A stretch of 33,677 nucleotides of DNA from an uncultured Methanobrevibacter sp. (GTDB taxonomy: Archaea > Methanobacteriota > Methanobacteria > Methanobacteriales > Methanobacteriaceae): contig NZ_CACZTX010000011.1 in assembly GCF_902784195.1 (NCBI RefSeq), positions 1 through 33,677 on the forward strand, in the 5' to 3' direction. The position numbers and the translations under genes are program-made. The notes beneath the pieces were generated by a model. It was not told where the DNA came from. It saw only the letters and a list, made by a program, of their open reading frames with translations, and made no database searches. Of the stretch, positions 4,142-9,315 are shown piece by piece (the stretch's first letter is position 1; the number at the start of each line of letters is the position of its first letter).

Positions 4142-4187
4142 ATTAATACACCTCGTATAATAATGTAAAATTAAATTTAAATTATTA

Positions 4188-4219
4188 AATAATCTTAAAT
4201 AATAAAAAATAATCTTAAA
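4188..4219. repeat. 12-bp direct repeat, 20-bp period
   Basis: AATAATCTTAAA occurs exactly at 4188-4199 and 4208-4219, start-to-start distance 20 bases, about two DNA turns. It lies 47-78 bases upstream of the psmB start, within the probable leader or promoter. AT-rich DNA makes chance repeats likely, so function is only a guess. Confidence 0.4.
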
Positions 4220-4279
4220 AATATAATGTTTTAATGATTGAAATTATTATTAAAATTAGAAATTGTCAGGTTTAATAAG

Positions 4280-4288
4280 TTATATAAA
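4280..4288 (-). promoter_or_regulatory. Possible psmB TATA box
   Basis: On the minus strand this reads TTTATATAA, close to the archaeal TATA consensus. It would give a leader of roughly 115 bases. Other AT-rich candidates exist, so this is tentative. Confidence 0.3.
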
Positions 4289-4546
4289 ATTTGTAAAATC
4301 AATTAATATTTATACAATATAACTCGCACTTCCTAACCTATTCTTATTATGTTATACATTATATATAATAGTTTCGTTATTTTCACAAATTCTAATGGAT
4401 AATTTCTTTCATTTTCAAATAATTTTTGATTTTTTATAATTTTTTAATTACTCAATTTTCGATTATTTTGATATTAAAGATTAATTTAATTTTTATTTTT
4501 AATTTAATCTCTTAATTTTCATTTATTTTCAAAACTACCTAGTACT

Positions 4547-4580
4547 AATCAATATTTTTGTTTATAAATTAATATTGATT
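4547..4580. repeat. Inverted repeat sharing the ATCAATATT core
   Basis: AATCAATATT (4547-4556) pairs perfectly with AATATTGATT (4571-4580) around a 14-base loop. It lies 125 bases after the stop of the 112-residue membrane protein gene on the minus strand. The arms share a nine-base core with the hairpins at 3350-3386 and 15512-15535. No T run follows on either side, so it is not an obvious intrinsic terminator. Confidence 0.45.
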
Positions 4581-4704
4581 TTAATAACTTTAATTTATTT
4601 TAATGTATTTACTCTTATTATTGGCTTTGTATTATTTAAATGTTTTTAAATTAGTTTAATATTTTTAGCATATAGTTTTTGATGATTTAAATAAAATAAG
4701 AAAT

Positions 4705-5043
4705 TCAGATTATTCCATATGGCCTCAGGATAAGGAATAGGATAAATGCGATGAATATTCCCACTACGATTATTATTGGAATTAATCTTTTATATTCCAT
4801 TTCTTCCTTGATTAGGAAATTTCCTTGGTCTTTGCCCTTTATTGTTTCTTCATCCTCTGATATGAATGAGTAGAAGATTGCAGTAACTAAAAGACAGAAG
4901 AACAGTCCTGCAAAACGGATCAGTGGATTTTGTGAGAATTGGAATCCTGGATTGATGATCATTGTTGCAATTGCAAAAAGGGATGCGAATTCAAGGAAGA
5001 ACAGTACAGAAACGACTTTTGCAAAGCTTCGATTCACTATCAT
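4705..5043 (-). CDS. Small membrane protein of the adhesin operon, unknown function
   Basis: I do not recognise this 112-residue protein. It has three clear hydrophobic segments, at about residues 9-30, 43-62 and 88-106. Between the second and third is a charged loop rich in Glu and Lys (ISEDEETIKGKDQG). The C-terminus, RPYGII, is very short after the last membrane segment. A GGAGTG ribosome binding site precedes the ATG. It starts 23 bases after the 267-residue gene on the same strand, so it is almost surely co-transcribed with it and with the adhesin-like gene. A helper, exporter or membrane immunity role is possible but is inference from position only. Confidence 0.75.
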   Translation of the reverse strand: MIVNRSFAKVVSVLFFLEFASLFAIATMIINPGFQFSQNPLIRFAGLFFCLLVTAIFYSFISEDEETIKGKDQGNFLIKEEMEYKRLIPIIIVVGIFIAFILFLILRPYGII

Positions 5044-5066
5044 ATAAACACTCCATTATTTTTTTA

Positions 5067-5870
5067 TTATTTCCAGCTGCTTTCATCTTTCCATTTTTCT
5101 TCATCGTATAGTTCGTATACCAGTGGTCTGATGTCATTGAGGATGATTTTGAATCCAGTCAGGTATGCTATTACCACATCTTCGCAAGTAATGCTGTCTC
5201 TTCCTTCTTTTAGAGCATTGCATCCCATGAGATAAAACATTGCCATATGAAATCCGCGGCAATATAGAAAATCCAAATCGCAGCTGCCATAAATAGTGGA
5301 TATTAATCTATGTATCAATGTATCTAATTTTTCTGCCTTTTTATTTTCCCAATATGTTCTATGAAGTTTTTTAAAAAATCTTTCATCATAATCCGGCAGG
5401 GGATTCTCCGTATCATCAAAATCTTCAACAAAGAAAGTGATATGGGCTCCAATATCAGAAAGTTTAATTGCTTTATCCTCTTCCCACTCAAGGTAATGAC
5501 CAGAATAAGTGATGTATGAAATTTGAACCACAGCATAAATGGAAATAAGTGTATTTATATCAATCAAACGATGGGTTATTTCAGGAATATAAAGAGGTAT
5601 TAAATGCCGATAACCTAAACCCTTTTTAGCACATTTAAAAATTTTAACCTTATTAATGTCAAAAAGGAATATGGTGTCATCTTCACCCATTTTATCCCAA
5701 GTTGCATAACGATGAAAGACATCACTAGTTTTTAAAGATTTAATTAACTCAATAAGTTCATTTAAACGTGTTATGTCTTCAAATTCGCTAATTTTTTTTA
5801 GGTAATACTCACATAAATCATCATAACTATAATTAAAAGATTTTATTGTTCCAATCAAATTCACTTTCAT
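5067..5870 (-). CDS. Acidic protein of unknown function downstream of the adhesin-like gene
   Basis: I do not recognise this 267-residue protein. It has no signal peptide and no strong membrane segment, although 110-125 and 203-217 are moderately hydrophobic, so it is probably cytoplasmic. By my hand count it is acidic, with about 45 Asp/Glu against about 34 Lys/Arg, and it is rich in Tyr, Phe and Ile. The strong site AGGAGG sits only one base before the ATG, but seven bases before a GTG at codon 3 (5862-5864). The true start may therefore be that GTG. It begins 22 bases after the stop of the 1074-residue secreted protein, the placement expected of a partner or immunity protein. No sequence motif shown here proves that role. 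Confidence 0.75.
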   Translation of the reverse strand: MKVNLIGTIKSFNYSYDDLCEYYLKKISEFEDITRLNELIELIKSLKTSDVFHRYATWDKMGEDDTIFLFDINKVKIFKCAKKGLGYRHLIPLYIPEITHRLIDINTLISIYAVVQISYITYSGHYLEWEEDKAIKLSDIGAHITFFVEDFDDTENPLPDYDERFFKKLHRTYWENKKAEKLDTLIHRLISTIYGSCDLDFLYCRGFHMAMFYLMGCNALKEGRDSITCEDVVIAYLTGFKIILNDIRPLVYELYDEEKWKDESSWK

Positions 5871-5892
5871 TCCTCCTAGAAATTTTAATAAT

Positions 5893-8800
5893 TTAATTTA
5901 TGAAGCTTTTTAATAATTTCTTTGTATTATTAACTACTTTATTCATTAATTGTTTTCCTTTACTTTTTATAATATTGCCTACTTTAGCAGTAAATTTTTT
6001 AGCAGTTTGAGTCACTTTATGCATTTTATTATTTTTACCTTTTTTATTATTTTTTGGGTATTTTGTTCTTTTCTTGTTTGTTTTGGTTTTAACTTTTGTA
6101 CTAACTTTTTCGATGACTTTTTTTGCAGTTTTAATTATAATTTTTTGTTTTTTGCCATATTCTTTTTTGTTTTTATTTGAAATTCCTAATTGTTTAGCTA
6201 ATTTTTTTATTCCTCTTTTTATTTTATTTTTTATTTGTTTGGGTGTTATTTTAGAAATTTTTTTAGAAATTTTTTTGATGAATTTAATTTGGCCTTCTTT
6301 ATTTTTTTTGTAAATTGATGTATTACCTTTATATAATACTGTTTTTCTTTTATTAGATGCATTATATTTTGTGAGAGTTTTAGTTAAATTTTTAACTTTT
6401 GAAGAAAAAGTTAGAAAATCTGCAGTTAGTATATTTAATACTGGTTTGCTTAAATTATTTAGGTATCTATCGATTATTTGGGATGTTTTAATAATTGAAG
6501 TTATTATGCTGGATTCTGTACCTTTAGATGCCATATTAAACCCAAATTTCTCTGCAAGAAACTTGCCAATGTCATATGTTAAAGAAATTATTCCTGTATG
6601 GGGCTTATTAACCAACTGAATAGATATATCAACTAGATTTAACATAGTGTTTAGATTAGGAAGCCTATTAGGAATAAATATTGTTATCTTTGAACCTTTA
6701 AGGTACATATTGAGTTTATTTAATCTAGTTAATATTTTGGAACCTCCCTTTTCTAATAATCCAACACCTAATAAAGAAATAACATTTATTATAAATTGAG
6801 CTATTGACATATCTCCATTTGCATCTATGCCTATAGCAAAATCTAGAATGCCTTTTATCCATGGGGAATACTCGCCAAATGTTGCATCCATAAATTTGTT
6901 ATATTGTGGGTCATGGAAGAAGGGATATTTTAAGAATCCACTGATGCTGCCATTGCATGCAACATATGCTTCAGCGAATGCGCCAACAACATACAGATCC
7001 AATCCTAAAGCAATAGGGTATATGGATAGGAAAGAGTTAGGATTAGTCAATAAATCATGAGAGAACTCTTTATAAAGATATGATATGAATAACATATTTG
7101 CATCTGTTCTATTTTTTGCATATGGGAACTTTTTATAAAAATCATCAGTATAATCCTTAAATAAACCAAAGAACATTTTATCAATATCATTTTTATTCTT
7201 TGAACTGGTGGATGTGTCTATTTTGATATAAGGGTTATCTGAATAGATAACAATATCCGATGTGTCTCCACTAGATAAAAGTTTAGAATGGACTTTTTTA
7301 TGGTTATTTTCCATTTCAATAATATTGGTTGAATTTCTTGAAGTATCCTCATTATTTATGTTACTATTTTTATTGTTATTCTCATTATTGTTAGTTTCTT
7401 TATTGAATATCTCTAATATTCCAGTGATGTTTATGGGAGTGGATATGTTGCTTGTGGGGTGTGTTATTTGGAAAGAATAATTTCCGTTTTTAAGGTTTTT
7501 TGCTGGTATTTCAAATATGGCAAATCCTGAAGAATTGGTAATGCTTGTAAAGTTTTTGCCATTGAGAGTTAGAATTAACTCTTGATTTGGTGCACCTTTA
7601 GACAATGTGGGAGCAAGATCATCAACAATCAAATCTCCAAGGCTGTATACTCCAGGGTAATTGTCTCCATATTCTAGGAAGACAAGCAGATCAATTATAT
7701 TTTCCTTGTTTTTTGTGCTGTAATTGATTACATTAAGTTTGTAGCTTTTGGCTTGGTTGTCCTGGAAAATATTAGTAGAGAGAATTGCTGTGTTGTTATT
7801 GTATATTGAGCTTCCGTTTAAAGCGGTATTAAATTTAAAGAGTGATTTGTTTAATTTTAAGATGGCGTTGTTGAATATTGCTCCACCTAAAATTGCATTG
7901 TTTAATGTGAAATTGGATCTTGAAATGTTTAGTGTATGGTTTGTAAATATTGCACCTCCAAGCTTAGCCAGATTATTTGAAAATGTGGAGGAAATTATTT
8001 GGGAATTTAGCCCATTCTTGTAATATATTCCTCCTCCATTTGATAATGCTATGTTATTTTCAAATTTGCAATTTATCATTTCATTTAATGAGTTGACAAA
8101 TGCTCCTCCGCCGTAGGATAATGCCAGATTATCTAGGAACCTTGAATTTTTAATAGCTGTTTTGTTGTTTAGGTATAATGCTCCTCCGTTGTTTTCTGCT
8201 GTGTTGTTTGTGAAGTTGCAGTTTATTATATTTAGGTTTGTGTTGTCTTTTGCTTGGAGTATTGCTCCGCCGTTTTTTGCTGTGTTGTTTGTGAATGTGC
8301 AGTCTTTGATTGTGTTGTTTCCGTGGTGCAGCATGTATATTGCTCCACCGCCTAGGGCGTTGTTGCTTGTGAATGTGCAGTTGATTATTTTGGTGTTTAG
8401 TGCATGTGTGTCTATTGCTCCTCCATACCCTCCTGTTCCATTGTGTGTGAATATGGCTCCGTTTTCCTTGAATATGCAGTTTTTTATTGTTGCGTTGTGG
8501 GATTCGTTGTTCAGTACGATTGCACCTATTTGGGCATTGTTGTTAATGAATTCGCAGTTGGTGATTGTCAGGTGTTTTCCGTAGGAGCTTATTGTTCCGC
8601 CCCAGATGTCTGCATGGACATTCTGGAAGATTAGGTTTTCCAGATGAACATTGTCTCCGTTGATGCGTAGGATACGGGTTTCACTGTCGCTGCCATCTAG
8701 GATTGCTTTGGAATTGGGTGATTTGCCTTTTATGGTGATGTTGTCTGTGTTGATGGTGATTTGCTTTTTGTCGCTATGGTATGTGCCGTTTAGTGTTATT

Positions 8801-9117
8801 GTGTCTCCTGGTTTGGAGCTGTTGGCTGCTGAACGGATGTTGGAAAATGATGTTCCTGAAACATAGTGATTGGAACTTAGTGTGGATGAGCTAATGATGT
8901 CTGTTGTGTCTTTTTCATTTGAAATGTTCGGATATTTTTGTGTGACTTGGTTTTCATTGATGACATTGCCAGGATCTTCAATGGACTGTATATTGTCACC
9001 AATTGAAGTGATGGAATCATCTGAATAGGATGTGTTTTCACTAGCATTAACAGAGGCAAGTGAAATGATCAATATTAAAATTAGAAAACCAAATAATAAA
9101 CATTTTTTCTTATTCAT
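5893..9117 (-). CDS. Adhesin-like secreted protein with Pmp-type beta-helix and lysine-rich C-terminus
   Basis: This is a 1074-residue surface or secreted protein. A signal peptide covers residues 1-25 (cleavage probably near VNA-SEN). A right-handed beta-helix spans about 110-460, with repeated C-F-NN-A-GGAI units (for example CTFTSNNALGGGAIY at 247-261). A small Ig-like domain follows at about 505-570, then an Asn-rich linker at 572-600. Residues 620-900 form a domain I cannot name, with hydrophobic stretches near 690-720 and 770-790. Residues 905-1074 are extremely basic, about 58 Lys/Arg against 3 Glu by hand count. There is no C-terminal membrane anchor or sortase-type signal. The beta-helix part matches the adhesin-like proteins known in Methanobrevibacter. 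A GGGGAT site precedes the ATG. It heads a three-gene run with gaps of 22 and 23 bases. Confidence 0.9.
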   Translation of the reverse strand: MNKKKCLLFGFLILILIISLASVNASENTSYSDDSITSIGDNIQSIEDPGNVINENQVTQKYPNISNEKDTTDIISSSTLSSNHYVSGTSFSNIRSAANSSKPGDTITLNGTYHSDKKQITINTDNITIKGKSPNSKAILDGSDSETRILRINGDNVHLENLIFQNVHADIWGGTISSYGKHLTITNCEFINNNAQIGAIVLNNESHNATIKNCIFKENGAIFTHNGTGGYGGAIDTHALNTKIINCTFTSNNALGGGAIYMLHHGNNTIKDCTFTNNTAKNGGAILQAKDNTNLNIINCNFTNNTAENNGGALYLNNKTAIKNSRFLDNLALSYGGGAFVNSLNEMINCKFENNIALSNGGGIYYKNGLNSQIISSTFSNNLAKLGGAIFTNHTLNISRSNFTLNNAILGGAIFNNAILKLNKSLFKFNTALNGSSIYNNNTAILSTNIFQDNQAKSYKLNVINYSTKNKENIIDLLVFLEYGDNYPGVYSLGDLIVDDLAPTLSKGAPNQELILTLNGKNFTSITNSSGFAIFEIPAKNLKNGNYSFQITHPTSNISTPINITGILEIFNKETNNNENNNKNSNINNEDTSRNSTNIIEMENNHKKVHSKLLSSGDTSDIVIYSDNPYIKIDTSTSSKNKNDIDKMFFGLFKDYTDDFYKKFPYAKNRTDANMLFISYLYKEFSHDLLTNPNSFLSIYPIALGLDLYVVGAFAEAYVACNGSISGFLKYPFFHDPQYNKFMDATFGEYSPWIKGILDFAIGIDANGDMSIAQFIINVISLLGVGLLEKGGSKILTRLNKLNMYLKGSKITIFIPNRLPNLNTMLNLVDISIQLVNKPHTGIISLTYDIGKFLAEKFGFNMASKGTESSIITSIIKTSQIIDRYLNNLSKPVLNILTADFLTFSSKVKNLTKTLTKYNASNKRKTVLYKGNTSIYKKNKEGQIKFIKKISKKISKITPKQIKNKIKRGIKKLAKQLGISNKNKKEYGKKQKIIIKTAKKVIEKVSTKVKTKTNKKRTKYPKNNKKGKNNKMHKVTQTAKKFTAKVGNIIKSKGKQLMNKVVNNTKKLLKSFIN

Positions 9118-9315
9118 GCAATCCCCAAATATTAATCAAATTAATACTTAATTAAGTTATTTATTTGAAGGTTTATTTAATATTTTTGAAAGATTCTTTA
9201 TTTATCCTCTTTCCAAAGTATTAAGAAATAATTTTTTACAAAAATATTTTATTTAATTAAAATAAAGTATATTTATTGAATTTAGAATAGAGATTTTTAT
9301 TCATCTGGTGATTCT

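Follow-up and report, generated by a model that had tools for sequence, protein, structure and literature searches.

Polymorphic toxin systems (Zhang et al. 2012, PMC3482391) comprise a long exported stalk protein with a variable C-terminus and an immunity gene directly downstream, along with standalone toxin-immunity cassettes, strings of immunity genes, and an island-like distribution. They have been called rare in archaea (PMC3482391). A three-gene unit with this layout is located in the window, a 33,677-nucleotide stretch of DNA from an uncultured Methanobrevibacter sp. The unit consists of gene A, which encodes an adhesin-like secreted protein with a putative effector C-terminus; gene B, which encodes a predicted cytosolic, all-helical immunity protein; and gene C, which encodes a three-helix membrane protein, the predicted membrane half of the immunity unit. 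Sequence comparison suggests, with a probability of roughly 0.8, that it is a polymorphic toxin-immunity locus of Methanobacteriaceae. It differs from the systems in PMC3482391 in that neither the effector core of A nor B nor C reaches the cut-off for any known toxin or Imm family, and in that it pairs a methanogen beta-helix, adhesin-like stalk with what appears to be a two-part, cytosolic and membrane immunity.

Three other described systems resemble the locus in part. VARTIG of the Thermococcales (Makarova et al. 2021, PMC8416519) is also archaeal and combines a large surface protein with a hypervariable C-terminus and subfamily-matched downstream membrane proteins. However, it is built on Ig-domain proteins, belongs to another archaeal order, and has had no toxin candidate identified in it; it is set apart here by its description and not by sequence. 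The Methanobrevibacter adhesin-like proteins (Leahy et al. 2010, PMC2812497) share with A the secreted beta-helix/PMP-repeat stalk and the Ig-like stretch, whereas A has an additional putative effector C-terminus and partner genes and not an anchoring end. Archaeal contact-dependent antagonism is documented experimentally for the contractile (type VI-like) system of Halogeometricum (Zachs et al. 2024, PMC11566945). That system uses another delivery machine, whereas in A the signal peptide and the stalk are part of the effector protein itself. No description of the A-B-C system was found in the literature searched, which excluded the main survey of archaeal polymorphic toxins (Makarova et al. 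2019, mBio 10:e00715-19).

Genes A (5893..9117, 1074 amino acids), B (5067..5870, 267 amino acids), and C (4705..5043, 112 amino acids) lie head to tail on the minus strand, and each open reading frame (ORF) begins with ATG. An earlier note on this DNA, made from the sequence alone, had described three minus-strand genes separated by only 22 and 23 bases; the coordinates and both gaps (A/B and B/C, respectively) are confirmed. Ribosome-binding sites precede B (AGGAGG) and C (GGAG). The A-B-C order is found in genomes G000 and G036, and since G036 has it with near-identical gaps (23 and 23 bases) at a different chromosomal place, the arrangement is more than chance.

Gene A encodes a multi-domain protein with a predicted signal peptide, a stalk, and a separate C-terminal module, as is typical of the exported proteins of polymorphic toxin systems. 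All of its parts are encoded on the minus strand. A Sec-type signal peptide, recognized by eye, spans residues 1-26 (9040..9117) and includes the strongest hydrophobic segment of A (residues 6-24). The beta-helix/PMP-repeat stalk occupies approximately residues 90-480 (7678..8850), matches Pfam Beta_helix (1e-8) and Chlam_PMP (2e-8), and has many paralogues within its own genome. It is followed by an Ig-like stretch at residues 490-600 (7318..7650), which matches NCBIfam Ca_tandemer at 8e-4, below its cut-off, and gives weak matches to other large ORFs of the same genome. The effector C-terminus, as delimited by alignments and by detached copies in locus L041, extends from residue 620 to 1074 (5896..7260) and has no beta-helix matches. 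The earlier description of A as a secreted beta-helix protein with an end of another kind is thus borne out by the signal peptide and the Pfam matches. Its label as a giant protein is not, as 1074 residues is modest beside homologous A proteins of up to 2,348 amino acids.

Within the effector C-terminus is a conserved core of about 85 residues (P.Y....G.....DF.GIDANG..S....L.SL..G; residues 717-803, 6709..6969), which was aligned across genomes; its profile detects it in 18 of the 151 genomes of Methanobacteriales analyzed. With a profile built from 50 B proteins, B is detected in 29 of the same 151 genomes; a phylum-wide search added one more genome and no new hit. A search with a closer B set found five Methanobrevibacter loci, and the nearest named relatives of B come from uncultured Methanobrevibacter. 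B is present in 17 of the 18 core genomes (Fisher p = 7e-14 for co-occurrence, a nominal value because the genomes are related to each other). The exception, G066, has a weak core hit with three stop codons. Wherever the contig continues, B lies on the same strand 549-1770 bases downstream of the core (24/24, with G066 left out and five further cores running into contig ends). In 23 adjacent effector-B pairs the gap is 10-239 bases, which is the toxin-immunity gene order of polymorphic toxin systems. Among 77 B genes of at least 190 amino acids, 21 directly follow this effector class, 17 follow a second class, 22 follow another B, and 17 have another neighbor or a contig end. B therefore does occur apart from this C-terminus, though only in the manner expected of immunity genes.

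The effector C-terminus and B also co-vary, a point that the earlier note had proposed to check. Their identity matrices are correlated across 20 adjacent pairs (Mantel r = 0.855, permutation p = 2e-4), although this correlation partly reflects shared ancestry. Two contrasts do not depend on ancestry. G141 contains two effector types, each with its own B type, and the type-2 cassette of G139, from another genus, is 85% identical to that of G141; its B is 71% identical to the matching G141 B, as opposed to 35-42% for the other G141 B genes. G033 has B genes of two clades: two genes group with the effector type that G033 itself carries, and the other four are sister to the window-type B clade, despite the absence of a window-type effector in this genome. 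By their sequence affinities, these four genes look like immunity to rivals. B genes beside the second effector class likewise cluster on the tree (4 label changes versus 15.5 in shuffles). Polymorphism and paired inheritance would look alike in a self/non-self or kin-adhesion module, in which variable C-termini serve as ligands, B and C serve as a receptor/signaling pair, and no cell is killed, and such a reading has been offered for VARTIG (PMC8416519). It is nevertheless improbable here: orphan and foreign-subfamily B genes kept without a matching effector fit protection better, and an amphipathic, cationic tail fits membrane damage.

A gene map of 41 loci reveals the polymorphic layout. 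G033 has one effector followed by six B genes. G141 has a full-length A followed by B, B, and C, and then three detached C-terminal cassettes that have no signal peptide; a separate B goes with each cassette, and a C with most of them. There are also several orphan B genes. A variable C-terminal module with standalone cassettes and strings of extra immunity genes, both hallmarks of polymorphic toxin systems, are thus present. In G138-G140 (L037, L038, L039, L040), the second effector class alternates with B genes; it has a constant repeat body and linker followed by four or so variable hydrophobic C-termini, each then followed by a B gene. Homology between the two classes was rejected (hhalign probability 0.4%).

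The earlier note had offered two readings, an effector with its immunity partner and a surface adhesin with dedicated helpers. The first is supported by the 24/24 adjacency, co-variation, cassettes, B arrays, and orphan B genes. In the second, B would act as a chaperone in the cytosol and C would serve in export or anchoring, which is compatible with gene order alone and with a stalk that is adhesin-like and rich in paralogues. This alternative is now weak and very improbable, since B genes are found as orphans or strung together in as many as six diverged copies, signal-less cassettes each have their own B, B co-varies with the C-terminus, and the C-terminus matches no anchor domain. Specifically, neither A nor its C-terminus has a Pfam match to a pseudomurein-binding repeat, Big_1, or a sortase-type domain, and no wall-binding domain was found among the libraries searched, which did not include M1-C (PMC2812497).

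In L045 (G039, 4230-9236), a 69-amino-acid basic ORF that looks like the remnant of an effector C-terminus precedes four B genes, each fused to a membrane tail, which would leave immunity without an intact effector. Similar short basic-aromatic motifs (KLKFW, RLKFW, KFRLW, KWHLW, KFFRW) form the ends of effector C-termini that can otherwise hardly be aligned (L031, L033, L045 at 4230-4439, L041, L143, L147); window A does not have one.

The immunity unit probably consists of two parts, B and C, as indicated by their fusion in other species. Window C, in which the three hydrophobic helices of the earlier description were found, is 41% identical over 111 amino acids to the C-terminal extension of a G033 B protein (a B-C fusion). 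In G031, C is a separate protein and shares 63% identity with the tail that is fused to B in G030. Most loci pair B with a small membrane gene or with a fused membrane tail. The earlier proposal of an immunity partner is supported for B, with the amendment that the partner is probably two genes and not B alone. Its count of 45 acidic against 34 basic residues in B is exact, but acidity is not family-wide, with net charges from about -24 to +1 among relatives. B has an all-helical soluble fold as modeled by AlphaFold (pLDDT 89.8, pTM 0.89), with no significant relative in PDB or BFVD and a weak, partial similarity to MCM/histone folds (best E 0.97). The best conserved motif of B, GC.ALK.GR..I..EDVV.AY.T.FK (residues ~217-250, window 5121-5222), resembles the C-terminal helical part of MCM/AAA by eye and by weak, non-significant Foldseek matches.

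Given the toxin-immunity reading, the effector probably acts on membranes, judging from the features of its sequence. The earlier note had pointed to hydrophobic stretches in residues 620-900 and to a highly cationic tail. Downstream of the signal peptide, A is most hydrophobic in two segments, residues 696-714 and 770-788, the latter a strongly hydrophobic helix within the core. The tail (residues 900-1074, 5896..6420) holds 55 Lys and 3 Arg against 1 Asp and 3 Glu and is predicted to be helical and amphipathic from the helical moment of residues 861-1074 (z = 5.3 compared with shuffles). In all eight effector tails examined, Lys is abundant and amphipathicity shows at the helical angle (z 4.5-9.2), with no signal at the strand angle. 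Such a Lys-rich tail, with its strong amphipathicity in helical form, makes membrane permeabilization the most likely action.

Alternatively, the effector may act inside the cell as a nucleic-acid-binding protein or an unrecognized enzyme that is neutralized in the cytosol by B, with C as an accessory. The extreme Lys content of the tail and the soluble, acidic B (net charge -11 in the window pair) would suit such a role, and the most frequent toxins in archaeal systems are reported to be DNases and RNases (PMC8416519). This is unlikely, as the effector has no nuclease or other enzyme motif and no conserved catalytic-type residues outside the core, B is fused to membrane protein C in several species, and the second effector class is hydrophobic and not cationic yet is paired with the same immunity family.

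In the proposed mechanism, A would be exported by Sec and displayed on its beta-helix stalk. Its C-terminus, with the hydrophobic core and Lys-rich amphipathic helices, would enter and permeabilize the membrane of a neighboring, probably related, methanogen. In the producing lineage, cytosolic B and membrane C would meet the cognate C-terminus on the cytoplasmic side of the membrane and neutralize it. Comparison among sequences establishes the architecture, linkage, co-variation, cassettes, B-C fusion, and island behavior on which this scheme builds; toxicity, target cell, membrane permeabilization, and the choice of B or C as neutralizer are what we infer.

Several observations weigh against the toxin-immunity reading and its membrane step. 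Some loci have no C (L033, L034, L050), and shared ancestry contributes to the Mantel correlation. The model of the effector C-terminus is poor (pLDDT 54), so the membrane step rests on sequence features, and the structure search with this model was uninformative. In addition, the effector core, B, and C are above cut-off in none of Pfam, NCBIfam, PHROGs, PADLOC, and PDB. A match to a catalogued family is not required for membership among polymorphic toxins, as new families are often found by context.

Three candidate matches for the effector were rejected. The PT-TG pre-toxin domain (PF14449) is similar by eye, but no A protein in the 151 genomes matches it even at E 0.1, whereas Bacillus subtilis, used as a control for the HMM (hidden Markov model), does. 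The tail matches a tape-measure family in PHROGs (4.8e-5), and one relative matches ApoLp-III; both were taken as helix/composition matches.

All three genes lie in an inserted island (4668..9235, boundaries good to about 10 bases) that is absent from congeners. The genes psmB and taw2 directly adjoin each other in 12 congeners. Colinearity of G026 (L124) with the window extends to 4667 and resumes at 9236, and roughly 12 bases separate the two parts in G026, so approximately 4.57 kb, comprising the three genes and short flanks, is present in the window and absent in G026. The sister unit of G036 adjoins lysA- and dapF-like genes, and the psmB-taw2 site of that genome is empty. Related loci recur in different genera near lysA/dapF (L031, L033, L049) and near a ribB-like gene (L040, L042, L046); these neighbor names are readings of the sequences, and the flanking genes of the window were checked against Pfam and NCBIfam. 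Presence or absence at psmB-taw2 and recurring sites elsewhere constitute the variable-island behavior of polymorphic toxin systems.

At the ribB site (L046, L042), G082 carries A and B as a pair, and G085 has a single B by itself. Simple toxin loss was considered and rejected, since the tree places the G085 B in a different clade from that of G082, which indicates different islands at this site and not one decayed island. No mobile-element ends were found at the insertion, where flanking repeats do not exceed AT-rich chance matches. A viral or plasmid origin was likewise discarded: B has no relatives in IMG/VR, phages, or plasmids, and the effector has none in phages. Between psmB and the insertion lies a very AT-rich segment of 526 bases (window 4142-4667) with no long ORF; it is 77-92% identical in the closest congeners, matches no Rfam family, and may be regulatory or encode an undescribed RNA.

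By its sequence, the A-B-C locus carries the genomic features that define polymorphic toxin systems, without a catalogued effector or immunity family. A bolder picture, to be held tentatively and at somewhat less than even odds, is that adhesin-like proteins let pseudomurein-walled methanogens kill their kin on contact, with the cationic helical C-terminus opening pores in archaeal lipid membranes. Immunity would then come from a two-part complex of B and C, both of undescribed families, with a B that has no detectable relative of solved fold. Gut and rumen methanogens encode dozens to more than 100 adhesin-like proteins of unknown role (PMC2812497), and the many reshuffled forms of the locus in related methanogens suggest that these archaea attack each other by means of proteins hitherto classed as adhesins. 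If a subset of these proteins are weapons with matched immunity, they would gain a concrete, testable function, and the known effector and immunity families would be joined by some that the searched libraries lack. If true, this would also give the archaea behind ruminant methane a way to exclude one another's strains.
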